From Candidatus Parabeggiatoa sp. nov. 3 (GTDB lineage Bacteria > Pseudomonadota > Gammaproteobacteria > Beggiatoales > Beggiatoaceae), in contig QNEL01000012.1 of NCBI GenBank assembly GCA_003645185.1, forward strand, positions 1 to 36,892: DNA of 36,892 nt. The letters are read 5' to 3'. Both the position numbers and the translations under genes were made by a program. Below the pieces are notes generated by a model. That model was not told where the DNA came from. It saw only the letters and a list, made by a program, of their open reading frames with translations, and ran no database searches. Every line of letters begins with the position of its first letter. The first letter of the stretch is position 1. Below are positions 9,701 through 24,827 of this stretch, piece by piece.

Positions 9701-10559
9701 ACTTAAAAGGGTATGAATCACCCCGATAGGCTTGCACTGGTGGTCGAGGTTTATCTGTTGGCAAATGCAGTACGGGCAAGTCACCAGCCAGTTGTTTTTG
9801 CCAATAGGCCCATAACCGTTTTCCAATAGGGCCCTCCAGCATTTTGGTTTGCCATACCACATAGTCTGTGTATTGCCATTTCAGAGGTGGCAGAATGGCT
9901 GAATGATCTGATGTTTCAGCTTGGTAAAAAGAGAGGCAATCTGCTATTAAAATCATCCAAGCTGACCAGCCATCTAACACAATGTGGTGCCCTGTTAACA
10001 ACAAAATATAATCCTGCATTGAACGGGTAAACAGCGTCACACGCAACACGGGGCCGGTTTCCAGATTCAAGGGACGCTGGTATGTCTCAACCACTTGCTT
10101 TTTTAATTCATCCCAAGAGCATCCGTAAGCCTCCTTTTCCTCAAAACACAGTTGACGTTCAGCATGAATCTTTTGAACAGGTTCACCATTTTGTGTCGTA
10201 AAAGTGGTGCGTAACATGGGATGGCGATCTATTAGCGCGTGGAAAGCGCGTCGCAATGCGAGAACATCGACATCAGAACGTATGCGTACAGTATTCGCGA
10301 CATTATAGGCAGCACTTTTTGGGGCGAGTTGGTATAAGAACCACAGGGCACGCTGATTATGAGAGAGGGGATACGTTTTAGAAAAGAGTTCAGTGTCTTG
10401 CTGCAACAACTGTACTATTTCTGGTTTACGTTGCTTAATCTCAGTGAGTCGTGCGACTGTCAATACCTCCTTGGGACCACGATAGCGCAGTTTTTCACCT
10501 TCAGCCCACAATTCGACTCCCTGCGCTGACAGTTCTTTTAGAAATGTAACTAAATTCAT
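792..10559 (-). CDS. Nonribosomal peptide synthetase: TubC-type docking - C - FkbH (HAD-like) - PCP - C - A(with embedded methyltransferase) - PCP - E
   Basis: [27 protein letters not shown] (docking); HHIVLDGWS and HHIITDGWS (C); VIVLDCDGTLW and VKDRFGDYGLVG (FkbH); GGHSLLG and GGDSILS (PCP); YTSGSTGKPKG (A); RVLEIGCGTGLLL (MT); HHMAIDGVSW plus SFNYLGQF (E). RBS-like GGAGGGTG precedes ATG. Confidence 0.95.
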   Translation of the reverse strand: MNLVTFLKELSAQGVELWAEGEKLRYRGPKEVLTVARLTEIKQRKPEIVQLLQQDTELFSKTYPLSHNQRALWFLYQLAPKSAAYNVANTVRIRSDVDVLALRRAFHALIDRHPMLRTTFTTQNGEPVQKIHAERQLCFEEKEAYGCSWDELKKQVVETYQRPLNLETGPVLRVTLFTRSMQDYILLLTGHHIVLDGWSAWMILIADCLSFYQAETSDHSAILPPLKWQYTDYVVWQTKMLEGPIGKRLWAYWQKQLAGDLPVLHLPTDKPRPPVQAYRGDSYPFKLNQSLFQRLTALAQEKEATLYMILLATFQMLLYRYSGQDDILVGSPSSGRNQHEFAKTVGYFVNPIVLRAKLSDNLSFNAFLTQVRDTVLNALAHQDYPFSLLVEQLRPNRDPSYSPIFQVMFLFQKPQQVEEDIIKLMFPPPDESEFKVNFAGLELVPYEMAQQEGQFDLTLEMMEIKTSLFGVLKYNTDLFETDTIIRMTEDFQTLLEDIVINPQQHISDFNIQGIKTITGEEQPTLAIAATFTAEPLKDSLDFWISTLALPFQIKFSPYNQVFQQLLDPNSLLLKADQGDKGINVLLLRFEDWAQSENEADIKNEIAQNLQDFVPILKSAAKQSVKPYIVCVCPASPLFADQALSQQLETQLAEQLADINNLSLITPSELTQTYPVSQLHDPHAEQLGHIPYTPTFFTALGTLITRKLHALKRTPYKVIVLDCDGTLWQGVCAEEGPLGIHIESSHQALQQFMLEQQSAGRLLCLCSKNQEEDVFAVFKQRTDMRLKREHLVAWRINWQPKSDNLKSLAAELNLGLDSFIFVDDNPVECAEVQAHCPAVTTIQLPSDLNQLPRFIEHIWAFDILKTTWEDQQRTQLYQQNQQRESWRDQTLTFTDFLAGLELDIQISPMTSSQVNRVSQLTQRTNQFNFTTIRRTEAEIGEYVGGKHVEGEHVGGKHVGGEHVEGDNKEGDNKEGDNKEGEHVGGKHVEGEHVGSPLHQSLVVNVKDRFGDYGLVGLMLFEYDADALIVDTFLLSCRALGRGVEHNMLAQLGKIATERQISQIKIRYNPTSKNQPVRDFLESVTSPLQQSVKPGWHALPAEYVAKLTYRPASIEKPSSPKSLLIPTANEKASQTTRIGYNKGLDRGISLFYKIATECFDAEQILKTIESQKTHQRPKLVTAYVAPRNPVEDMLVGIFKTLLNIEQVGIHDNFFQLGGHSLLGVQVMSRIRDIFSVELPLHYLFEYPNVIGLSEQIQLAQRDNTKSLCPPIQPIERQGPLPLSFPQERLWFLDQLTPDNPFYNTPAAVRLDGHLDITALEQSIRAIAQRHETLRTCFKTINGKPVLVIHPLSVNHYQFSIINLQKLPEEKQSEQVQHLTDIEAQRPFDIQQGPLFRTTLIQLNAEQHVFLMTIHHIITDGWSMGILVQELSALSEAFSTGSPSPLPELPIQYVDFAQWQRQWLTGEVLATHLNYWQQQLADAPPVLEIPSDHPRPPVHTFRGRSQYFEIPPELTQQLKTLSQQSGVTLFMISLAAFAILLERYSGQEDILIGSPIANRTRQEIEPLIGLFVNILVLRLDLSGEPTFIDLLTQVREVTLGAYAHQDLPFEKLVEALQPERDMSRNALVQVALAFQNVPQPPIKLIDFTITPVEFEAGTVRFDLEFHLWETADQLVGRFFYYQDMFEAATIARLLKHFHTLLTEIVAQPDKPISELSLLSQAERHQLLLDWHHSTSYPAEPCIHQGFENQAARTPNHIALVFEEQSVTYQALNTRANQLAHYLQTQGIQPDRLVGLCVERSLEMVIGLLGILKAGGAYLPLDPSSPPERLLFILEDAKITLLLTQEALVTELPTTPIALICLDSQWDMIAQGASENPLSAVKPDNVAYVIYTSGSTGKPKGVEVCHANVARLLTATQAWFHFNEQDIWTLFHSYAFDFSVWELWGSLLYGGRLVIVPYWISRSPDSFYELLVSQQVTILNQTPSAFRQLIQAEERVGKPNDNLTLRQIIFGGEALDFQTLKPWFERHGDQTPQLVNMYGITETTVHVTYRPLTQADLNSPGSLIGIPIPDLHIYILDRHRQPTPIGIPGELYVGGAGVARGYLNRPQLTTERFIKNPFSDEPNARLYKTGDLARYLADGSLEYLGRIDLQVKIRGFRIELGEIETVLLQHTAVREAVITSSTVSNEEENKRLMAYVVPDFDDPSQMADDVADQSELINQWEDVFDENYGQPDTVADPSFNIAGWNSSYTGLPIPPAEMREWVDAAVNAILSLKPKRVLEIGCGTGLLLSRIAPHSQQYWGTDFSPVVLQQVEQLKHQIKPLEHVKLFQRPADDFNDIAPGTFDTIILNSVIQYFPSIDYLIKVLDQAIQVVQPGGAIFLGDIRSLPLLKAYHASVQGYQAPDSLNQSALRQQVQQHIAQEVELVIDPAFFIALKQHYPQLSTVQIQLKRGCYHNELSRFRYEVILQVGDTAPTVEIAWQDWQNQPFTLDSILQRLQGNQGNSETPEASRETLQAETQSPQGQSFGVRGVPNARLETEIKTLEWLANAAPTETVGELQETLSTHQPIGIDPEDLWQLTDNSPYEVIITWSDTIGCYDVLFRHHHDPLAITPYPISPEPFKKPWHQYANNPLQQKLNRKLVPQLRQYLQDQLPDYMVPAAFVMLEVIPLTANGKIDYRALQTLDISTNKADKEQVAPRTSTENLLATIWAEVLGLEQVGIHDNFFESGGDSILSIQIVARANQAGLQLTPRLLFQHQTIAELAEVASTALIQAEQGIVTGPVLFTPIHHWFLEQNGQAAHHFNQAVLLAGPTEPNRAWLAEIVQQWLSHHDIFRLRLTRNESDWQATQIDLNSEDSLPFQVINLSELATHQQFQALETAANQQQASLNLSKGPLLRVILFELGPTTPSRLLIVIHHMAIDGVSWRILLEELQTAYQQLSQDEAIQWPAKTTSFKAWSERLSEYAQSVTVTAELNHWLSFSEITPLPVDFSPELTSSTEYSTSNTVASSAQITVSLTVEETHALLNEVPSVYNTQINDILLTALVQSLSRWTTNHELVIDLEGHGREDLFENSDLSRTVGWFTSIYPVLLTLDNANSPSDTLKSIKEQLRHIPNRGIGYGLLRYLNPKTAWQLKMLPQPEISFNYLGQFDNQLSDDILFKMAQENSGKTHSPSEQRRYLIEINGLITENQLQLEWTYSQNRHHRATIEQLAHDFIAALQTLITHCKSQKTGDYTPSDFLSSKLSQNSLDKLMKKLGAKSNKK
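3050..3930 (-). other. SAM-dependent methyltransferase embedded in the A domain (probable N-methyltransferase; approximate bounds)
   Basis: WEDVFDENYG...FNIAGWNSSYTGLPIPPAEMREWV...RVLEIGCGTGLLLSRIAP...YWGTDFS, located between the A8 region and A10 (TANGKIDYRAL). Confidence 0.85.
7270..8990 (-). other. FkbH-like glyceryl-loading domain region within the NRPS (approximate bounds)
   Basis: VLLLRFEDWAQ, VIVLDCDGTLWQGVCAEEGPLGI, SFIFVDDNPVEC, QFNFTTIRRTEAEI, VKDRFGDYGLVG motifs. Confidence 0.85.
7572..7747. repeat. 15-nt tandem repeat (about 10 pentapeptide units, VEGEH/VGGKH/KEGDN) in frame inside the FkbH domain, ending in a TAGGGGCGAACCTACGTGTTCGCCC element
   Basis: Coding translation [58 protein letters not shown]. 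Confidence 0.95.
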
Positions 10560-13500
10560 AATTCACCCTCCACCCAATCACGCTCATTTGCGGCGTCTTG
10601 ATAGGCTTCCTTTTCTTCAGGAGCCTGTTGTTTATGTTTATCCCTATCAATAGAAGTGGAATGTTGTTGATCTTGAATGGGTTTCGTTAGCAATGCAGAT
10701 TGCCTCTCTGTCAGTTGTTCATTGACCAGTGTTGCCAGTTTGGCAATGCTCATTCCGCCGAGTAGTTTCATCGTGGGCACATCCACCCCCAGTTTCTTTT
10801 GAAAGCCGTGACTCAATTCAACAGCCATTAAAGAGTCTAATCCCATACTGATCATCGGTTTTGTGAAGTTCAGTTTAGTGGCAGAGGTGCCAAGTACCTT
10901 AGCGACGTGTTCGCTAATCCGCGATTCTAACAATGACTGACGCTCTGTCTGCGCGGTTGCTAGGAAGAGGTTGTGAAATGAGTCTTCTTGGCTTTCTTCA
11001 GCTTGCACTTGATTCAAATCAGCAGGGTTGCCCAAATGATAAAATCGGGGTGAAGCAGCTATAACAGGATATCGATTTGCTAATTGCTGCCAGTCCATTC
11101 GCGTCACGAGGATTTGAATGGCATTCAGTTGTAGCAATTCACCTAGTCGAGTCAGGGCCTGTTGTACGGGCAGGGTTTTAATGCCAATGCTATTGAAACG
11201 CTCCACTAAATCGGTATTTTGAGAAACATAACCGACATCTAGTGTGCCCCAATTAATGGTGAGTGCAGGTAAATGATTGGCCTGTCGGTAATGCGCTAAG
11301 GCATCAAGAAAGGCATTAGCGGCAACATAATTGCCCTGTCCAGGATTGCCAATAGTGGAAGACACTGAAGAAAACAGGACAAAAAAATCTAATGGGATGT
11401 TTAAGGTTTGGGTATGTAAGTGCCAAGCGCCCATGATTTTTGGGGCCATGACGTTGTTCATGCGTGCCTCATTCAGTTGTAGCAACGCCGCATCGTCTAG
11501 CACCATCGCACCGTGAATAATGCCGCGCAAGGGGGGCATGGATTGCTCAATGTTATTGAGTACTTCGGCAACGTCTTGTGACTGTGACACATCAGCCTTG
11601 GCGATGATCACTTTAGCACCGGTTTGTTCCAAGGTGTTTATCGTTTGCTGAGCAGTCGGTGATGCTGCCCCGCTGCGCCCCATAAGTACGAGATGTCGCG
11701 CACCGTTTTTGATCAACCACTGAGCTACCGCTAAGCCAAATCCACCCATTCCGCCGGTAATCAGATAGGTGCCCTCTGTGCGACAGCGTATTGTTTTTTG
11801 AGAAACGGGAGCGATTATGCGCTCTGGTGCTTCTTGCAAAGACAGAACAGCAAGACCAATTTGTTTGGCTCGGTGGCGAAATGCGTTGCCAACCTCTGCG
11901 AGAGGAAAGACACGGTATGGCAGCTTCGGCAGCGTTTTTTCAGTCAATAAGGGCATGATTTTGTACCATACTGACTGAATCACCTCAGGACGTTCTTGTA
12001 TCATGCGTTCAAAATCAAGTGTGAAAAATGACTGATTTTGAAAAGCTGGCAAACTCAACGGGGTATTTTCTATATCCGGTTGACAATCAATAAAACGGCC
12101 GTAAGGATTCAGTATAGAAAGACTTTTAGATCGGACTTTTCCGGGCAACGAATTTAAGACAATATCGACACCATGCGCCTGTGTCTTGATCTGATCTGCA
12201 AACTCGTGTGAATCCATAACCAGCTTGAGACCTAAGCTGCGAAGAAAGCTTCGTTTTTCTGGGTTATCGGCAGTGGCAAAAATGGTTGCCCCGGCTTGTT
12301 GGGCCAATTGGATAGCTGCCAAACCGACAGCATCTGTTGCGGCATGAATCAGTATCCGATCACCTGCACGAATCCGAGCTAATTCGTGCAACGCATAGTA
12401 AGCGGTTAGGTAGCCCATGCTCAGCGTTGCGGCTTCTTCAAAATTGGCCTTGGCTGGCTTAGGCATGACGAAATGGATTGAACTCGTGGTGTAACGACTC
12501 AAGCTGTGACGCGCCAAAGCGATGACTTCATCGCCGATTTTAAAATTGGCGATGCCTTCACCCACAGCGGTAATGATGCCACTACAGTCTAAACCCAGTG
12601 TTGGTTCTGAAAAGCTTGCTTCTAAAGTGGCATCGGTTATTGAACTCTTTGTTTTGGCTATCTCTTTCCAATTCAGTGCCGCTGCACAGACTTGGATTTC
12701 AACTTCGCCAGAGCCGGGTGGTTTGCGGTTGGTGACTTGCCAGCGTGCTTGCTCGTTGGGCTCTGATATTGTCAGATGGTAGGATTGAGTGGCCTCCGGA
12801 TTGATTTGGTTTTGAACTTGCTCAATCTCGGCTAAGGAAACACGCATCAGTCTATGTACATAGCGGGCTTCGCCTCGTAAAGCGATTTCTTCTTCTGGCG
12901 TGTCGGATCCTAATTCTTCAAAGAGCGACTGAATCTCTTTAGGGGTAGATTTGGGACTGATATCCAGCAGACGAGTTTTTATATTTGGCTGTTCATTGAT
13001 CAGGACTCGTCCCAAACCCCAGAGAGGCGATTGAGCAACTGAGATCGCTTTGAGATCGCCTACGGTGTGCATGCCTTGCGTCACTAGCCAAAGATGAGGC
13101 GCTTGATCCCACTGTAGTTGAGCTAAAGCCTGAATGAGATACAATGCGCTAAGCGCACCTCGTGCTGAATTTAGGGTGGTGGCTTGTTCCAAGGATTCAA
13201 TGTCAATTCCCCACAAATGAATCAGATGCCAACCGGTGGGCTGTTCTGCCCTGACGACTTCAATCAGTTGCTGCATCTGTTCTGGCTGGGCCGGATGAAT
13301 TTGGAAATGGTTGACATCCAAGCGTTGATAGGTGTCGCCTGGTGTGATGAGAATGGCGCGTTTTTCGTCTGCTGTAAAACGTGTCGCCAATTGTTGCCCA
13401 ATACCTTGTTTATCAGCAAAAATAAGCCAAGTGTGTGGTTGATAATCCGTTGTTTTCAGGGGCGGTTGAGCATCTTGTTGCTGAATGGTTGGCCCTTGGG

Positions 13501-16500
13501 CTATCAGTATAGTTTGTTCAGCCTCTTCAGCTTTATCTGTGTCAAACAGGCGATCTACTTGGGTAAAACCGACTGCCGTTAATAGATTTTGCCAGTGTTG
13601 TGAACTGAGCAGGGGATGAGCAGGGCGTAAATCGAAATCAGAAAAGAGCCACCATCCCTTGAGCAATCCGAATACGAGATCAAGCCAACGGGGGGGATGG
13701 GTTAATTCCATTAAGATGAGACAGCCTTGTGAGGCGAGCAATTGTTTAACTTGATTCAGTGTGTTATCCAAGTCATGAGTGGCATGTAAGGCGTTAGCGG
13801 CCAGAATCAGATCAAACGAATGGGGATCAAATCCTTGCTGTGTGGGGTCTTTTTCAATATCCAAGAGTTGATATTGAATGAAACGGTAATGACGAAACTT
13901 TTGCTTTGCTTGGTTGGTGAACTGTTCGGAAACATCTGTAAAAACATATTCAGTGCGATCAGTAGGCAATTTGGGCAACAGGTAAGCGGTCATTCCACCC
14001 GTACCGGCACCAATTTCTAAAATACGTATTATCCTGCCGGCTGGTAACTGTGCCAGTATCGCCGAGATCACTTTTTGAACGACTTGATTATTTAGCCGAG
14101 AAAAGGGTGCATCTTGGTACAGATGCTCAGAGGTGGTCAAAGCACCTTGTGGAAAGAGGAGTTCTAAAGGTTCAACTTGCCCTTGCAAAACTTTTGCTAA
14201 GTGTTGCCCACATCGCCCGATTAGCATGAGTTCTGCTTGATAAGCTGGAGATTGTGCTAACAGTTTTTGCCATAAAGCCTGTGAAGGGGGCATGTCAGTA
14301 GGCAGCGTGATGACTTCCCATTGTGAATCATCAATCTGATTCAGTATACCGTCTTCTCTGAGTATGTTGAGAAACCGTCCCAATAAACGCTGATGTTGTG
14401 GGACAATGTCGAATTGTTCTACCAGTCTTGCGGTTGTCACGCGCTGATGTTTGTGAGGTTGCCAACCTAGAATATGGAAGGCATCAAGAATGTAAGCGGT
14501 AGACAAAGCATCCAATTGAGGGCGAATAGTTTGGTAATAATGTGGCCTCTCCAATTGAGTGCTCAATCGAATGGTTTGTTGGAGGGTTTTGGCCAGTTGT
14601 CGTGGCGAGGGGAAATAATCCACATCACGATTCTGGAATTGATGGGGACGGGGTTGTAGGTGCCATTGATATTCGTATAGATCATCTTCTGGGAGGGTGA
14701 GTGGTTCTAAGGCGTGGCAGTGTAATCCTTGAATATCGACTAGTACATTGCCTGTGTTATCAAGCAGTTGCAGATTGCCCTTAATCCGGGTGGCAGTGTG
14801 TTCTACCAATTGTGCATGACTCCACAATGGGCCATCAGGGCGAGCGTAAAACCGAATGTGATCGATTTTGACGGGCAAATAGGTTTTTTCAATCACCGAG
14901 ACGGTGCCCATCAAAACCTGAAAGCAGGCATCCAAAATCGTGGGATGGAGCAAGTAGTTTTGGGTTTCTAAATCCTCAGCTATGCGTAATTGACTGACGG
15001 CCTCTTTGTCACCTTGCCAAAGTTGTTCAATCCCTTGAAAATAGGGCCCGTATTGTAGCCCTAATTGAGAAAATTGCTGATAGCAATCAGACTGTGTTCT
15101 TTCAGTTGAGCAACGGTGACGCAGTTCCTCTAATTCGACGGTAGGCTGCTGAATTGATTGAGCAGGGTTTAACTGACCCGTCGCGTGTTTTACCCAAGAT
15201 TCAGTGTTTTTGGCCCAGCTATAGATCGTAAAAGCATTTTGGTTTGTTGGCTCAAGTGTCAACTGAAGGGGTGGCGAGTCTTCCTGTGTCAAGAAGAGGG
15301 GGGTTTGAAATTCAAGTAGCTCAACACGATAAACCGTGTTTTCCCCAAAGGTTTCTTTAGCCGCCGCTAAGGCCATTTCCACGTAGGCTGCACCTGGATA
15401 CACGATGGTGCCTTGAACACAATGGTCAGTCAAATAAGTGAGTTGTTGCAGATCAATCTCGCTATGCCAGATCGCATGAGCTGATTTTAAAGGGCAGCCG
15501 AGCAATGGATGAACTGGTTTACCCAGCCAATCTTGTTGAATCGCGCCTTCTCCTAAGCGGTCTTGTTGAGACTGTTCAGATTCTTGCCAATACCGTTCTT
15601 TTTGCCAAGGATAGGCCGGTAGCCTTACAAAACGACCGTTTTGCGGATAAAACCGATGCCAATCCACTGGGTAGCCTACCGTGTAGAGTTTGCCAAAACT
15701 ACTGAGCAAGGTTTTCTGTTCTGGTTCTTTACGACGCAATGAGGGTAAGACTCGTCCCGTTTCACGCCCTGCGTGGTTCAAGATTTCAGACAGATAAGTG
15801 GATAAGACAGGATGTGCCCCGATTTCGAGGAAGCAATGATAATCTGCTTGAATCATGTCTTGAATGGTCGCAGCAAACCGCACAGGTTCTCGTATATTTT
15901 GTGCCCAGTAATGGGCATCTATTGCTGAACCGTCAATGATGTGCCCTGTCACGGTGGAGTATAGCGGAATCTTGGCGGGTTGTGGTGTGAGCGGTTGTAA
16001 AGCGTTAATTAATTCAGCTTGTAAGGGTGCCATCAAGGGGCTGTGATAAGGGACATCGACGCGCAAGAACCGACAGAAAATCTCTTGTTGTTCTAAAGTG
16101 TGTGCAATGTTTTCTAGGCTGGCAGCTTGACCCGATAAGGTGATCCCGCTGGGACTGTTGATAGCTCCGATGGAGACGTGATCCTCATGGCCGATTAAAA
16201 ACGGGGCGACTGCTTCTGAGGAGAGCCCGACAGCTAACATTTTACCTTGTCCGGTGGTTTGGGCTTGTAAGCGACTGCGATGGTAAACCACTTGAATGGC
16301 CTGTTCTAGGCTTAAGACACCGGCAACCTGAGCTGCGGCGACTTCACCGACACTGTGTCCGACAATGGCATCCGGTACAATGCCCCAAGAACGCCATAAG
16401 GCAGCTAAGGCGACTTGTAGCGACAAAATGGCAGGTTGTGCGATTTGGGTTTCATTAATGCGCGAGTGTGCTTCATCGGCAGTTAAGGCAGCCAATAATG

Positions 16501-18319
16501 ACCATTGGCTATGCTGATGGAATAAAGCATCACAGTGTTCAATCGTTTCACGGAAAACGGCTTCCGTTTCCAATAACTGACGGCCCATGGCCCACCATTG
16601 CTGTCCCATGCCAGAAAACACAAAAACCAGTTTAGGTGAAGACTCTTCAGTGATGATTTGATCTGAAGAGAGGCCTAAGCGTGTTTCGTCATTCAAAAAG
16701 GCGGCTAGGTTTTCTATCATTTCCGCTTTTGAGTGCGCTACCACGGCTAAGCGATGGTTGTGATGGCCTCGGCGTAGGCTGGCACTATAACCGATATCGG
16801 ATAATGGGATCGTGTCATGTACGGCATCCGTCAAAAAGGCTTGATAGGCCTGTGCAAAGGCTTGTAAGGCTTCTGGACTACGCGCTGAAATCGGTAAGAG
16901 GTGGATTTGATCGCCAGAGGGCGAATCCTCAAAAGAGGGCGAACACGCAAGTTCATCGGGCGAACACGCCGGTTCATCGGGCGAACACGTAGGTTCGCCC
17001 CTACATTCCAATAAGATATGGGCATTGGTGCCCCCAAAGCCAAACGAATTGACTCCCGCGAGGCGCGGTAGCCCATTATGGTTTTCAGGCCAAGGTGTTA
17101 AGGTGGTGGGAACGCGCACCCGTAATTCATCAAACTGAATTTTAGGATTGGGGGTTTCAAAATGCAGATTAGGTGGAATTTTTTGATGAAAGAGCGCCAG
17201 TGCGACTTTGATTAAGCCGGCAATACCCGCAGCCCCTTCCAGATGGCCAATGTTGGTTTTGACTGAACCGATGAGACAATATTCCCCAGGCGGCCGCGAA
17301 CGGCCGAGCACTCGGCCTAGCGTATTGGCTTCAATGGGATCACCGACTGGCGTACCGGTGCCGTGTGCTTCAACGTATTGTATGTGTTGTGGTGACACGT
17401 TGGCTTGTTGAAGGACTTCACGGATGGCGGCTTCCTGAGCTAAACCATTGGGTACCGTGAGACCATTGCTATGACCATCTTGATTGATAGTGGTACCCCG
17501 AATGACCGCATAAATCGGATCGCCATCGGCCAAGGCCGTGGATAACGGCTTTAAGACGACTATTCCTGCCCCTTCCCCCCGAACATAACCGTTAGCGCGT
17601 GCATCAAAACTCTTGGAACGACCATCAGGAGACAGCATGGTGGCCTTACTTTCAGCGATGGTTGTTTCTGGTCTGAGCATAAGATTTACGCCGCCAGCCA
17701 AAGCCAGTGTAGAAGCCCCCTGCCACAGACTTTGACAAGCTAAGTGGACAGCGACCAAAGACGAAGAACAGGCGGTATCCAATGCGATACAAGGCCCTTT
17801 AAAATCAAACACATAAGAGATGCGATTAGCGATAATGCTCATAGCACCACCCGTACCGGTTTGTGCATCAATTAAATCGCGACTCAGTACACCACTTTGA
17901 ATATCTTGATGGTCCATACCCATTAAACCAATAAAGACAGCAGTGTTTGAACCCGCTAAGTGTTTTGGCACTTGCCCCCCATCTTCTAAGGCTTCCCAAA
18001 CGATTTCCAGTAATAGCCGTTGTTGGGGATCCATGCGAGCCGCTTCTCGGGGAGAAATCCCAAAAAATTGGGGATCGAATTGGTCGATGTTGTCCACAAA
18101 GCCACCCCAACGCGCATAAGTTTTGCCGGGTTTGGCCGGATCAGGATGGTAAAATTTATTGATATGCCAGCGATCAGGTGGTATTTCGGTGATCGCATCT
18201 ACGCCTTCAACCAGTAATTGCCAATAACGTTCTGCGTTATTAGCACCGCCTGGAAAGCGGCAACCAATGCCGATGATGGCAATGGGTTCGGGGGCCTGTT
18301 TAGGAGAGAGTGTCGTCAT
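10556..18319 (-). CDS. Type I polyketide synthase, cis-AT, KS-AT-DH-MT-ER-KR-ACP
   Basis: [30 protein letters not shown] (KS); [10 protein letters not shown] (AT); [12 protein letters not shown] (DH HxxxGxxxxP); LEIGAGTGG (MT); [21 protein letters not shown] (ER); [15 protein letters not shown] (KR); [11 protein letters not shown] (ACP). Stop overlaps the NRPS start as ATGA. Confidence 0.95.
16915..17006. repeat. 21-nt tandem repeat ([14 protein letters not shown]) in frame in the KS-AT linker, fused to a TAGGGGCGAACCTACGTGTTCGCCC element
   Basis: gggcgaacacgcaagttcatc / gggcgaacacgccggttcatc / gggcgaacacgtaggttcgcccctaca; encodes [32 protein letters not shown]. Confidence 0.95.
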
Positions 18320-18411: not shown

Positions 18412-18466
18412 ACCTCTGTGTACCTCTGTGTACACAGAGGGCCACAGAGTACCACAGAGTATAAGT
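18412..18466. repeat. CTCTGTGTAC/CACAGAG palindromic repeat cluster
   Basis: tacctctgtgtacctctgtgtacacagagggccacagagtaccacagagt; similar words at 32785-32826. Confidence 0.8.
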
Positions 18467-18615
18467 CTATGATTTTTAATTATATATTCTGATATTAAAT
18501 ACGCTAAAAATGTGTGTTTGGCCAGAATTTACAAACTGATAGGTGGTAAGACGCAAGTTTGCGTTACTGACCTTATCTATTCAAAAATGAGATACAATAA
18601 ACATTAGCTCAGAGT

Positions 18616-18650: not shown

Positions 18651-18796
18651 TTCAAAAAACAAGATTGGTGAGCAACAAAATAACACCGCCTACCCTACAA
18701 AAACGGATATGGATTGTCTAATTGGTGTAGCCAATTTTGCAACTTTATATCCTATTGTGTTATCAAAGTCAAGAAAGAAAAAATAACGCAAAAGAA

Positions 18797-18828
18797 CGCA
18801 AAAGTTTTGGCGCGCCAAAACTTTTGCG
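18797..18828. repeat. Perfect 32-nt palindrome CGCAAAAGTTTTGGCGCGCCAAAACTTTTGCG
   Basis: Direct reading. Confidence 0.9.
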
Positions 18829-18907
18829 TGAAACACTGTTCATGCGAGTTTTGAGTTTTAGTGATATTAAAATCTATAGCGGCAACCACAAGGGATTTGC
18901 CCCTACA

Positions 18908-19116
18908 AGCGGGTACGGGCGCATTCCCAAAAAAAGGGTCATTATCAATCTTGGCGATCCGCAAAATAACATTCACTAAAAGCGGGCAGCAAAATGAATT
19001 TTGCACTCCAATTTCCCGCAAAATGAATTTTGCACTCCAATTTCCCGCAAAATGAATTTTGCACTCCAAAAAGGCAGCAAAATGACCATTTTATTGGGAA
19101 TGCGCCCAGCGGGTAC
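18908..19116. mobile_element. MITE-like element (18917-19107, 191 bp) with ~27-bp imperfect inverted termini and 9-bp target duplication AGCGGGTAC
   Basis: Left end GGGCGCATTCCCAAAAAAAGGGTCATT; right end reverse complement GGGCGCATTCCCAATAAAATGGTCATT (25/27 match); AGCGGGTAC at 18908-18916 and 19108-19116; no transposase ORF inside. Confidence 0.88.
18989..19067. repeat. 29-bp unit GCAAAATGAATTTTGCACTCCAATTTCCC, 2 full copies plus a partial third, inside the MITE-like element
   Basis: Direct reading; each unit contains hairpin GCAAAAT-ga-ATTTTGC. Confidence 0.92.
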
Positions 19117-19397
19117 TCGTTAATTCGCTTATTCACGTTATTCGCTTATAATCAACGCGGGAATAAATTTAACTTTTACTTGATGATCAAGTTTTTTCTA
19201 AAGTCAAACAATAACTACTAAAACCCGTACCTACAAGGATTGTATATAAAAAAGGATTTAAACCGAGTAGCAGTATACTTTGTTTCATTGTACCATTCTA
19301 TAAAAGAACTACGGCTATAATGACAATGAATTTAACCCGCGTTCTATCCAATACATCAACTCCATTGCTGGAGGACCTATAAAAGGAAAATCAGATT

Positions 19398-22300
19398 ATG
19401 ATAACAATTCCTAATTATCAAATCATAAAACAGATTTACGAAAGTGCGAGTTCACGTATCTATCGTGGCCTTCGAGATCAGGATAATCAAGCCGTTATTT
19501 TGAAGGTATTGAAAACCGATTATCCCTCGTTACTCGAATTGATCCGTTATCGACAGGAGTATGATATCACGCGCAGTCTGAATCTACCTGGCGTGATCAA
19601 AATGTATGGTTTGGAAAAAACTGAAAATCTCCAAGTTTTGATTTTAGAAGATTTTGGGGGGGAATCCATAAAACGATGGCTAACCGATTTGGGATTTGGG
19701 ATTTGGGATTTGGGATTAACGGATCGACAAGCAGCGACAATCGAAAAGCGACCATTCCAACCCACAGATATTTTAGCATTTTTGTCCTTGGCTATCAAAA
19801 TCGCTGACATTTTAGGTGATATTCACGCAGCCCATTTGATTCATAAGGATATTAATCCTAGCAATATCGTGTGGAATCCTGATACAAATCAATTAAAGAT
19901 CGTCGATTTTGGTATATCCACACGGCTGTCACGGGAAAACCCAACGCTGAAAAATCCAGAAGTGTTGGAAGGTACACTCTCCTATCTGTCGCCGGAGCAA
20001 ACAGGACGCATGAATCGTACCTTGGATTATCGCACCGATTTTTATTCTTTGGGCGTGACTTTTTATGAACTGTTAACGGGTCGTGTGCCGTTTTACAGCG
20101 ACGATCCCTTGGAATTAGTCCATTGCCATATTGCTAAACCGCCTACGTCTCTCTATGAGCACAATCCCAATGTGCCGGTTATTATTTCTGATATCGTCAT
20201 GAAATTAATGGCCAAAAATGTCGAAGATCGTTATCAGTCGGCTTTGGGTTTGAAGACGGATTTAAAAAAATGTCTGGACAAGCTCCAAGCTTCTGAAACA
20301 CTTCATGATCGGCCATTTGAACTGGGACAAAACGATTTTTCAGGCCGTTTTCAAATACCCCAAAAGCTTTATGGTCGTGATGAGGCCATTGCAACCTTGT
20401 TGCAAGCGTTTGAGCGTGTGGCCAATCCTCAAAACTCCCCCGATTCTGAAGAGGGGAGATGTGAGATGATGTTAGTGGCGGGGTATTCTGGCGTGGGTAA
20501 ATCCGCTTTGGTGCGTGAAGTCCATAGGCCCATGACAGCAAGGCACGGTTATTTTGCGTTTGGCAAGTTCGATCAATACCAGCAAAATATCCCTTATTCG
20601 GCTTTGAGTCAAGCGTTTAATGAATTTTGCCATTATCTGTTAAGCGAAAATCGCGATCAACTCGCACAATGGCAAGAACACATTCTCACGGCTGTGGGTA
20701 ACAATGGACAAGTGCTGATCGATATTATTCCGGCTTTGGCATTAGTCATTGGCGCTCAACAGGCCGTGCCGCCAGTGGGCCCAACAGAGGCCCAAAATCG
20801 TTTTATGTTGGTGTTTCAAAACTTTGTCAAGGCGATTAGCCAAAAAGAACATCCCCTGGTGATGTTCATAGATGATTGGCAATGGGCGGATTCTGCTTCG
20901 TTGAATGTGTTGAAAATGTTGCTAACCGATCCGGATTTGCACTATTTCTTACTCATTGGGGCCTATCGGGATAATGAAGTGGATGCATCGCACCCTTTTG
21001 CGATGACTTTGGAGGCACTCCAAAAACAACAAGCCGTTATCAATACCTTGAAGCTTGATAATCTGTCTTATCAGGAGGTCAATGCGTTAATTGTCGATGC
21101 TTTGCATGGTGACAGTGCCTCGGTAGCCTCTTTGACGACGTTGGTTTATGACAAAACCTTAGGCAATGCGTTTTTTACCACAGAATTTTTAAAGGCCTTG
21201 TATGAGGAAGAGTTATTAGACTTTGATTTTGATTCACAAGCGTGGTACTGGGATTTAGACCAAATCCGTCTAAAAGGGATGAGCAACAATGTGGTTGAGT
21301 TAATGGTGGACAAGATTCAAAAATTCCCGCTCGAAACCCAAACGGTCTTAACATTAGCCGCCTGTGTGGGGAGTCAGTTTGATTTACAGATTTTATCGCT
21401 TATCCATAAGCACAGCGCCAAGTCAACCCTGGAAGCGTTGTGGCAAGGGGTTGTCGAGGGTTTAATCTTACCTTTAGATGAGCATTACAAATTAGTGGAG
21501 GCTGAGACTAATTCGCTCGCCAAACAATCCCACTTTAAATTCCAGCATGATCGTATTCAACAAGCCGCTTATGCCTTAATACCTGAGGAGGATAGAGCGG
21601 AGCTTCACTTGGAGATTGGGCGGTTGTTGTTAAACAACACGCAAGCTGAAGACTTGGCCGAACGGATTTTTGATATTGTCAACCAGTTGAATGCTGGCCG
21701 AACACTGATCACGGATGAAACCGAAAAAGTTCGCTTAGCGGATTTGAACTTGCAGGCAGGCAAAAAGGCGAAAGCCGGCACGGCTTATCAAACCGCTATC
21801 AATTACTTGGCATTAGGACTGCCGTTATTAGGCGAGTTTGCCTGGGAGCAGCATTATGCGATTGCCTTTGAATTGCATAAAGAACAAGGTGAGTGTGAAT
21901 TTCTGTCCGGCAATTTCGATGATTCGGATCAACTTCTTGCCCTGGCTTTAGAAAAAGCGCAATCCAAATTTGATCGAGCCGAGATTTATGTGATAAAAAT
22001 AGCCCAATTGGCGGGGCAAGGCAAATATTATGATGCAGCTGCGACTATGATCAAGGCCCTGAATATGTTTGATATGAAGGTGCCCACCTTAGATCAAACA
22101 GAAGCACAACAACAGGCGACTACAGCGGAAATGGCCCTTTATCAAGAAAACATGACAAATCGCCATATTTCGGATTTATGGCAGCTACCTGTTATGCAAG
22201 ATGAAGCCATGAAAGTTTGCTCACGCATTATAGCTATCGCTATAGATTCCATTGTGATCGGACTTCCAGAACTTCTCGCTTTTTATACGGCTAAAATGGT

Positions 22301-24827
22301 GAATATGTCTATTCAATACGGCCTGTCACCATTTACTCCCGTGGGATATACTTTTTTTGCAGTTATACTGAGTAGTGGCTTTAAAGACTATACCCGTGCT
22401 TACCAATTTTCGGCCTTGGCCTCACAACTGAATCAGGAAAAACTGATTAATTATGGTATTAGAGCGAAGATATCTAATACATACGCTTTTTTAAAATTGC
22501 TTAGAGAAGATATCAATGCCAGCACCGAGTCTTTTAGAGAAACCTATCGTATAGGTGTTGAGGGTGGTGATTTTGTCTACGCTGGCTATGCCATAATTGA
22601 AGTGCCAAGATATCTTCTTCCCGTGAGTATAGAGGAGGGTCTAAAAACAACACAGGATGCCATTGCCTATTGTCAGAAAGCCAACAATATGCCAATGCTA
22701 CTTGTTGGACAAATGTATGCGGGTTTCATTAAAAACTTGCAAGGTGCTACTTGGGGTAAAAATAGTTTTAATGACAGTAGTTTTACAGAAGAAGCTTTTT
22801 TAGATAGTGCTGGAAAAGCACCCGTTCTTTGTGCTGTTTATAAACGATATAAATTGCAATCACTCACCCTTTTTCAGTGCTATGAGCAGGCTTTACCCTT
22901 AGTACATGAACGTGCTACTTGGATTGCGGCTTTTGGAGGATTAGATTTTAATTTAAGAAGTGATTACTTCTTGTATGCTGGTGTCACGATTGCCGCCTTG
23001 TATCCCAGAGTGTCAGAAGCCGATAAACCCAGCTACATGGCCATTCTGGATGAGTGCATTGATGAAAATCGGTTGTTGTTTGAGCAGTGTCCCATCAACT
23101 TTGAACATGCCTATCTGATTTTACAGGCTGAAAAAGCCAGAATCGAAGATCGCCACATGTCGGCGATGCACTATTATGATCAAGCCATCGCCTCGGCCAA
23201 GGAACAGGGTTACCGCTGTAATGAAGCTCTGGCTAATGAATTAGCCGCTAAATTTTGGTTAGCCCAGCAAAAAGAAGATTTTGCCCGTCTCTATCTGCAA
23301 GGGGCCCACTATGCTTATGGTTTGTGGGGTGCGACTGCCAAAGTCAAGGATTTAGAAGAAAAGTATCCCAAATTGTTGACTACCCCTTCCCGAACGACTC
23401 AATTGCCAGACCCAAGCTCTGCAGTGATGACAACAGGGTTTTCCACGATGATGGGTACATCGTCAAATGTTTTATTAGACTTTTCCAGTGTACTCAAGGC
23501 ATCACAAGCCATTGCCGGTGAAATTGAATTGCACAAGTTATTCAAGCAATTGATGACGGTGATCATTGAAAATGCAGGCGCACAACGAGGCGTTCTGATT
23601 CTCGAACAGGCAGGACACTGGGTGATTGAGGCTGAAGGTGCGATAGATGACGATGAGGTGAGGATACTGGAATCTCTTCCTGTCAGTCAGGAAACGGTTC
23701 CAACCACCCTCATCAACTATGTTGCCAACGCTAAAGAAAGCGTGGTGTTACACGATGCTACCCATCAAGGCCAGTTTACCCAAGATGCCTATTTTGTTGA
23801 CAATCAGACTCAATCGGCTTTATGTGCGCCGCTTCTCAACCAAGGGCAACTGATGGGCCTGTTGTATTTAGAAAACAATCTGACTGTAGGGGCCTTTACG
23901 CAGAATCGTCTGAATATTTTAAAAGTCCTGTCTTCTCAAGCCGTTATTTCGCTAGAAAATGCGTTATTGTATCGGACACTGGAAGAAAAAGTTGAAGAAC
24001 GTACCGCCCAATTAGCCCAAGCCAATCAGGAAATTACAGAACTCAATGAGCAACTCAAAGAAGAAAATCTTCGCATGAGCCGCGAGTTGGAAGTTTCTCG
24101 CCAATTACAACAAATGTTGTTACCTAAAAAAGAGGAACTTCAGCAAATTGAAGGGTTAGATATTGTGGGTTTTCTGGAACCAGCAGATGAAGTCGGTGGC
24201 GACTACTATGATGTTTTAAAGTGTCATGGGCGCGTTTTGATAGGGATTGGCGATGTCACAGGACATGGACTCGAAAGCGGTGTCTTGGCGATTATGGCAC
24301 AAACCGCAGTGCGTACCCTGTTAGCTAATCATGAAACTGATTTGGTTAAATTTTTTACGGCCATCAATGAGACCATTTTTGACAATGCAGTACGGATGAA
24401 TTCCGACAAAAACTTGACCTTGATTTTATTGGAGTATGAAGCTCAACCAGGAGGTGGTGGCCTGTTGCGTTTGAGTGGGCAACATGAAGACCCGATTGTG
24501 GTGCGAAATGGTTCTGTGGAAGTGGTAGACACGACGGATTTAGGTTTTAATGTTGGCATGGTTGATGATATTACCGGGCTTGTAGCTCAAACCGAAATCA
24601 ACTTGAATCCTGGCGATGTGATAGTGTTGTACACGGATGGTATTACTGAAGCCGAAACTAAACAGAAAGAGGAATACGGCATAAAACGGCTTTGTGATGT
24701 TATTCAGCTTAACTGGCAAAAGTCTGTTTTTGACATCAGTCAAGCCATAGTCAATGATATGCGAGATTTTATTAGTCCAGAAAAGCCTGATGACGATATT
24801 ACGTTGTTGATTTTGAGGCAAAAATAA
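19398..24827 (+). CDS. HstK-like multidomain signalling protein: Ser/Thr kinase - AAA ATPase - TPR-like region - GAF - SpoIIE/PP2C phosphatase
   Basis: LIHKDINPSNIVW and IVDFGIST (kinase); VAGYSGVGKSALV and LVMFIDDWQWAD (ATPase); ASQAIAGEIEL...GLLYLENN (GAF); ELEVSRQLQQMLLPKKEE...VGGDYYDVL...GIGDVTGHGLESGVLAIMAQ...VLYTDGITEA (SpoIIE). AGGA ~10 nt upstream of ATG. Confidence 0.93.
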   Translation: MITIPNYQIIKQIYESASSRIYRGLRDQDNQAVILKVLKTDYPSLLELIRYRQEYDITRSLNLPGVIKMYGLEKTENLQVLILEDFGGESIKRWLTDLGFGIWDLGLTDRQAATIEKRPFQPTDILAFLSLAIKIADILGDIHAAHLIHKDINPSNIVWNPDTNQLKIVDFGISTRLSRENPTLKNPEVLEGTLSYLSPEQTGRMNRTLDYRTDFYSLGVTFYELLTGRVPFYSDDPLELVHCHIAKPPTSLYEHNPNVPVIISDIVMKLMAKNVEDRYQSALGLKTDLKKCLDKLQASETLHDRPFELGQNDFSGRFQIPQKLYGRDEAIATLLQAFERVANPQNSPDSEEGRCEMMLVAGYSGVGKSALVREVHRPMTARHGYFAFGKFDQYQQNIPYSALSQAFNEFCHYLLSENRDQLAQWQEHILTAVGNNGQVLIDIIPALALVIGAQQAVPPVGPTEAQNRFMLVFQNFVKAISQKEHPLVMFIDDWQWADSASLNVLKMLLTDPDLHYFLLIGAYRDNEVDASHPFAMTLEALQKQQAVINTLKLDNLSYQEVNALIVDALHGDSASVASLTTLVYDKTLGNAFFTTEFLKALYEEELLDFDFDSQAWYWDLDQIRLKGMSNNVVELMVDKIQKFPLETQTVLTLAACVGSQFDLQILSLIHKHSAKSTLEALWQGVVEGLILPLDEHYKLVEAETNSLAKQSHFKFQHDRIQQAAYALIPEEDRAELHLEIGRLLLNNTQAEDLAERIFDIVNQLNAGRTLITDETEKVRLADLNLQAGKKAKAGTAYQTAINYLALGLPLLGEFAWEQHYAIAFELHKEQGECEFLSGNFDDSDQLLALALEKAQSKFDRAEIYVIKIAQLAGQGKYYDAAATMIKALNMFDMKVPTLDQTEAQQQATTAEMALYQENMTNRHISDLWQLPVMQDEAMKVCSRIIAIAIDSIVIGLPELLAFYTAKMVNMSIQYGLSPFTPVGYTFFAVILSSGFKDYTRAYQFSALASQLNQEKLINYGIRAKISNTYAFLKLLREDINASTESFRETYRIGVEGGDFVYAGYAIIEVPRYLLPVSIEEGLKTTQDAIAYCQKANNMPMLLVGQMYAGFIKNLQGATWGKNSFNDSSFTEEAFLDSAGKAPVLCAVYKRYKLQSLTLFQCYEQALPLVHERATWIAAFGGLDFNLRSDYFLYAGVTIAALYPRVSEADKPSYMAILDECIDENRLLFEQCPINFEHAYLILQAEKARIEDRHMSAMHYYDQAIASAKEQGYRCNEALANELAAKFWLAQQKEDFARLYLQGAHYAYGLWGATAKVKDLEEKYPKLLTTPSRTTQLPDPSSAVMTTGFSTMMGTSSNVLLDFSSVLKASQAIAGEIELHKLFKQLMTVIIENAGAQRGVLILEQAGHWVIEAEGAIDDDEVRILESLPVSQETVPTTLINYVANAKESVVLHDATHQGQFTQDAYFVDNQTQSALCAPLLNQGQLMGLLYLENNLTVGAFTQNRLNILKVLSSQAVISLENALLYRTLEEKVEERTAQLAQANQEITELNEQLKEENLRMSRELEVSRQLQQMLLPKKEELQQIEGLDIVGFLEPADEVGGDYYDVLKCHGRVLIGIGDVTGHGLESGVLAIMAQTAVRTLLANHETDLVKFFTAINETIFDNAVRMNSDKNLTLILLEYEAQPGGGGLLRLSGQHEDPIVVRNGSVEVVDTTDLGFNVGMVDDITGLVAQTEINLNPGDVIVLYTDGITEAETKQKEEYGIKRLCDVIQLNWQKSVFDISQAIVNDMRDFISPEKPDDDITLLILRQK
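19687..19717. repeat. Heptanucleotide tandem repeat (ATTTGGG)x4 inside the kinase domain coding sequence
   Basis: gatttgggatttgggatttgggatttgggatt, encoding TDLGFGIWDLGL. Confidence 0.95.

Follow-up and report, generated by a model that had tools for sequence, protein, structure and literature searches.

Location and structure of the element

The 36.9-kb window (the whole stretch of DNA analyzed here) corresponds to contig C12 in a draft genome of 8.37 Mb. A 1.08-kb intergenic gap, upstream of two divergent genes, contains a short non-coding miniature element (MITE), which was read from the sequence as a 191-bp unit on the + strand. The genes and the parts of the element are as follows.

10556-18319, - strand: polyketide synthase gene.
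18908-18916, no strand: left copy of the target-site duplication, AGCGGGTAC; exact match to 19108-19116.
18917-19107, + strand: MITE, 191 bp, non-coding; the inverted ends and the 9-bp duplication set its limits, and BLAST gives 86 matches in its own genome.
18917-18943, + strand: left terminal inverted repeat, GGGCGCATTCCCAAAAAAAGGGTCATT, 27 bp; 25/27 against the right arm, 240 similar ends in the genome.
18961-18988, + strand: degenerate internal unit, GCAAAATAACATTCACTAAAAGCGGGCA, from sequence reading; the unit type recurs in other copies.
18989-19017, + strand: internal 29-bp unit 1, a 16-nt palindrome (GCAAAATGAATTTTGC) plus ACTCC; a GGAGT-hairpin on the - strand.
19018-19046, + strand: internal 29-bp unit 2, identical to unit 1.
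19047-19075, + strand: internal unit 3, 83% identical, differing in the last bases.
19081-19107, - strand: right terminal inverted repeat, 27 bp, reverse complement GGGCGCATTCCCAATAAAATGGTCATT; 25/27 against the left arm.
19108-19116, no strand: right copy of the target-site duplication, AGCGGGTAC; exact match to the left copy.
19398-24827, + strand: gene for a kinase/AAA/GAF/SpoIIE protein.

The initial annotation of this DNA described a 191-bp MITE-like element with inverted ends of about 27 bp, a 9-bp duplication, internal 29-bp hairpin repeats and no transposase, and each of these points was verified. The window was scanned for inverted ends (at least 10/12) lying 60-1000 bp apart with an exact 9-bp direct repeat immediately outside them. 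This element was the sole match, and 20 first-order (Markov) randomized sequences gave none. No transposase gene was found within the MITE. Folded as single-stranded DNA, the MITE reaches -42.9 kcal/mol (z = -6.2), and hairpins dominate the fold.

Other repeats make up a patchwork in the intergenic DNA around the element. The dispersed repeat GGCAACCACAAGGGATTTGCCCCTACA (18881-18907) adjoins the left duplication on its left side; it is what the initial annotation had noted as a degenerate TAGGGGC repeat. A dispersed repeat of about 120 bp occupies 18432-18550 and recurs, at 76-89% identity, in dozens of copies in the same genome and one congener. A perfect palindrome with 17-bp arms (ACGCAAAAGTTTTGGCG/CGCCAAAACTTTTGCGT) and the sequence following it (18796-18878) recur in the genome at 85-95% identity. 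A short dispersed repeat at 19219-19272 (ACAAGGATTGTATATAAAAAAGGATTT and neighbors) occurs many times in congeners and a related genus, sometimes in tandem.

Copy number and host range

Further copies, which the initial annotation proposed to look for, are plentiful. Ends with no more than three mismatches from GGGCGCATTCCCAAAAAAAGG number 240 in the element's own genome (G000), where the reversed pattern gave 0 matches as a control. Three other Candidatus Parabeggiatoa genomes have 63, 33 and 1, and the other relatives searched have at most one each. A 14-mer end search allowing up to 2 mismatches gave 168 + 159 matches versus 11 + 7 for the control. In an exact-pattern scan of 84,980 species, the ends were present in Candidatus Parabeggiatoa sp. 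nov. 1 and sp. nov. 2, and the matches outside these were two isolated single ones. The own genome contains well over a hundred copies, among them the window element, and the MITE family is restricted almost entirely to the genus Candidatus Parabeggiatoa.

From 164 distinct ends, 41 complete copies of 105-810 bp were recovered. Perfect duplications flank 29 of the 41 (17 of 9 bp and 12 of 8 bp), and the duplications of the other 12 are off by 1-2 bases. The 810-bp copy (L267) consists of array and unrelated sequence, without a transposase. Many copies in the own genome have no recognizable right end or partner, and the family may therefore be decaying.

Probable relationship to the ISKra4 family

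The MITE ends start with GGGYGCA, and such ends together with 8/9-bp duplications characterize the ISKra4 (Mutator-like) family. Elements of the p-MULT type have inverted repeats of 18-39 bp, with a terminal residue that is conserved, and direct repeats of 8 or 9 bp (PMC3942029). The MITE, with 27-bp inverted repeats and 8/9-bp direct repeats, is within these ranges for ISKra4 (p-MULT 4). The ISKra4 profile NF033572 has matches in the own genome, including a complete 1687-bp element (L115, 156-1842, on G000:C146; 234 bits) with a perfect 24-bp inverted repeat (GGGTGCAGTTCCTTTTTTACGACG), a 9-bp duplication (ATATCAAAC) and a transposase split into two overlapping frames. Its ends are similar but not identical to those of the MITE, with 9/12 of the first bases matching. 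ISKra4 elements elsewhere in the bacterial family have duplications of 8 bp (L125) and 9 bp (L137) and ends of the form GGGTGT..., and a GGGTG start is common to ISKra4 elements of the own genome and of the bacterial family. When the MITE ends are aligned with the ends of four intact ISKra4 elements, G1-G3 and G5 are invariant.

In a congener, a broken ISKra4 transposase (L121) is preserved over its C-terminal 58 residues, which end about 50 bp inside an end, GGGCGCATTCCCATTTTTCGGGTCA, whose first 13 bases are identical to the MITE. This remnant, which lacks its left end, was detected by tblastn at 33-39% identity (E 1.7e-8 against the L121 locus alone) and by NF033572 (E 2.1e-7). In a tblastn comparison of ISKra4 proteins with all retrieved loci it was the only transposase match beside an exact GGGCGCATTCCC end. 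The search for an IS with matching ends, suggested by the initial annotation, gave only this remnant, which agrees over its first 13 bases; the intact ISKra4 element L115 has ends that are only related. No intact IS or transposase with the exact MITE ends (GGGCGCATTCCCA...) was found. Partner ends up to 3.5 kb away, sought in the retrieved DNA for an autonomous copy, gave only chance-level candidates, and a class-wide pattern search of 369 genomes found the second end type in the own genome only. Because the element encodes no transposase, we file it as a MITE with ISKra4-type ends and not as an ISKra4 IS.

Duplication length alone cannot separate ISKra4 from the other DDE families that make 8-9-bp duplications (IS256, IS1595, ISLre2, ISL3 and some IS4/IS5 groups), and the exact parental IS is missing, so a true MITE moved by one of these families was considered as well. 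We regard this as unlikely, given that a MITE-type end abuts an ISKra4 remnant and that the ISKra4 elements share the GGGTG start. Rival families were screened in the own genome through IS256 (PF00872), IS1595 (PF12762) and PF01609 (DDE_Tnp_1): the first two have 0 matches, and the single PF01609 gene is without MITE-type ends; all three were rejected as the parent. We infer that an ISKra4 transposase moved the window copy. Mobilization in trans, as claimed initially, follows from the results, although no active transposase was identified.

In the congener G003, at least 10 contigs (L162, L165, L168, L171) end about 127 bp inside either of two identical MITE-type end sequences, and the elements with identical 127-bp ends all break at contig edges. 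These contig-end sequences mark an element that was amplified recently and whose body the assembly lacks. Their value as markers of an autonomous IS was made uncertain by a derivative in G004 (L197:1139-1701) that has both ends and no transposase.

Insertion site and possible host role

Within the ISKra4 group, certain elements are inserted 13-17 bp upstream of promoters of the sigma-A type (PMC3942029). For the MITE copies, promoter-like matches in the 13-17 bp window numbered 8 versus 3.3 expected at one threshold (p = 0.017), and a looser threshold gave p = 0.30; the signal for promoter-targeted insertion is weak and threshold-dependent.

The position of the window copy, in the gap upstream of both genes, and its strong fold would suit an element kept for the host, as a terminator, an mRNA-stability hairpin or a spacer between the divergent polyketide-synthase and kinase genes. 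Such a role is improbable. An Rfam search of the window gave no match, and no promoter-like or terminator-like site was found inside the MITE. Relatives have no orthologous conserved position, and transposition alone explains the copy number and the duplications.

Empty sites and the variable interior

A 285-bp copy (L272:689-973, duplication ATGTTATTT) is nested inside another MITE (L272:588-1029), and both the nested and the outer element carry perfect 9-bp duplications. Joining the flanks of the nested copy with one ATGTTATTT gives a 148-bp MITE that is about 94% identical to L002, L006 and L008, gapless across the junction. The copy at L061 lies inside another dispersed repeat, of which an uninterrupted version is present in the paralogous repeats L064/L090 (55 bp, 94.5%, no gap). 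The empty site that the initial annotation proposed as a check is therefore available for L272 and L061, but none was found for the window copy; the genomes searched contain no orthologue of its intergenic region. The 8/9-bp duplications, the many copies and these empty sites support the earlier claim of insertion by a transposase.

The ends are common to the species but the interiors are not: copies in the own genome contain GCAAAAT-type units, whereas an unrelated AGTACAACGGATACGCGAAATAAACGGATA inverted pair is found in many of those from sp. nov. 1 and 2. Own-genome copies have from 0 to about 8 internal units, which are alike within a copy. The copies at L259 (548-685) and L232 (562-807) share near flanks and the same imperfect duplication and are one duplicated insertion, yet their arrays differ, with 138 bp and 2 units of one type at L259 versus 246 bp and 6 units of another at L232.

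On the - strand, a unit consists of GGAGT followed by a hairpin with a 7-bp stem. Among perfect hairpins in the DNA examined, no other 5' foot comes near GGAGT in frequency, and it is followed by at least 6 different stems; these counts are biased by the retrieval of most of this DNA through MITE matches. The stems differ by species through paired (compensatory) changes: GCAAAAT in the own genome, CCAAACT and CCAAGAT in sp. 1/2, and CCAAACCT in a fourth genome. GGAGT-tagged hairpins occur both inside and outside MITEs in the loci of G000-G003, and for most of the hairpins that are not of the GCAAAAT type, the nearest 450 bp contain no MITE end. No MPNHxH-type motif of a RAYT/TnpA-REP gene was present in the 862 kb examined, which is mostly MITE-matched DNA. 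The internal units resemble REP hairpins, but they are not filed as REPs because their tag is a different one and a RAYT gene was not encountered.

That the element is not mobile as a unit, but is a REP/BIME-like hairpin cluster with ends that are palindromic by nature, has a negligible probability and is refuted for the family: the interior is indeed made of REP-like units whose hairpins dominate the fold, but the exact 8/9-bp duplications at 29 copies, the constant ends around species-differing interiors and the clean empty sites together require transposition of the whole unit.

Proposed origin

We conclude that this is a MITE family with a variable REP-like array as its interior, most probably moved in trans by an ISKra4-type DDE transposase. 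A transposase of this type, supplied in trans, would bind the ~27-bp GGGCGCATTCCC... ends and move the element, and an 8- or 9-bp staggered cut at insertion would produce the flanking duplication, here AGCGGGTAC. In this genome the interior, a tandem array of REP-like hairpin units, grows, contracts and is exchanged, and the ends remain constant. A more speculative and rather doubtful extension is that the MITE serves as a shuttle, in which DDE-type ends carry a REP-like hairpin block, a second process rewrites the array in place, and both kinds of repeat propagate together. Candidates for that second process, equally tentative, are tandem expansion, gene conversion and the action of a Y1 enzyme on GGAGT-tagged hairpins in single-stranded form.

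The initial annotation was right in its essentials. The MITE family is genuine and new, although its kind is known, and it has an unusual, variable hairpin cargo, which is the part worth following. The constant ends and changing hairpin array provide a natural system for tandem-hairpin expansion inside a mobile element. These results identify ISKra4/Mutator-like as the probable family behind an abundant MITE class of giant sulfur bacteria, and such repeats probably help explain the fragmentation of these assemblies.

Comparison with known elements

The ISKra4 family (p-MULT 4; ISKra4, ISMich2 and ISAzba1 groups) has the same inverted ends starting with GGG, 18-39 bp long, and the same 8/9-bp duplications (PMC3942029), and the congener's ISKra4 transposase remnant abutting a MITE-type end links the two. 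In contrast to the ISKra4 elements measured here (1365-1799 bp), the MITE is without a transposase and only 105-810 bp long, and its ends are identical to those of no intact ISKra4 element found here.

Bacterial MITEs such as RUP, NEMIS, ERIC and Nezha are non-coding, 70-300 bp long, with 15-30-bp inverted repeats and many copies (PMC3733652). Small size, terminal inverted repeats, lack of coding capacity and high copy number are common to bacterial MITEs in general and to the element described here, which differs from these four in its interior, a variable tandem hairpin array. To our knowledge, the window MITE is unrelated in sequence to RUP, NEMIS, ERIC and Nezha.

In the hupL MITE of Ca. 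Thiomargarita nelsonii, a direct repeat of 10 bp overlaps an inverted repeat of 19 bp by 1 bp, and those who described the Thiomargarita genome found in ISfinder no IS that could be its parent (PMC4853749). Compared by description only, it is similar in its giant sulfur bacterium host (Beggiatoaceae) and in having about 9 bp of direct repeat outside the element, but its inverted repeats are shorter (19 bp versus 27 bp).

REP elements and their TnpA-REP (RAYT) system have in common with the internal units short hairpins, a conserved unpaired 5'-foot tag, species-specific stems and frequent tandem arrays (PMC6006769, PMC3733652). The REP tag is GT[AG]G or CGTC (PMC6006769, PMC3733652), whereas the tag here is GGAG(T), no RAYT gene was seen in the DNA examined, and the units ride inside a DDE-type MITE.
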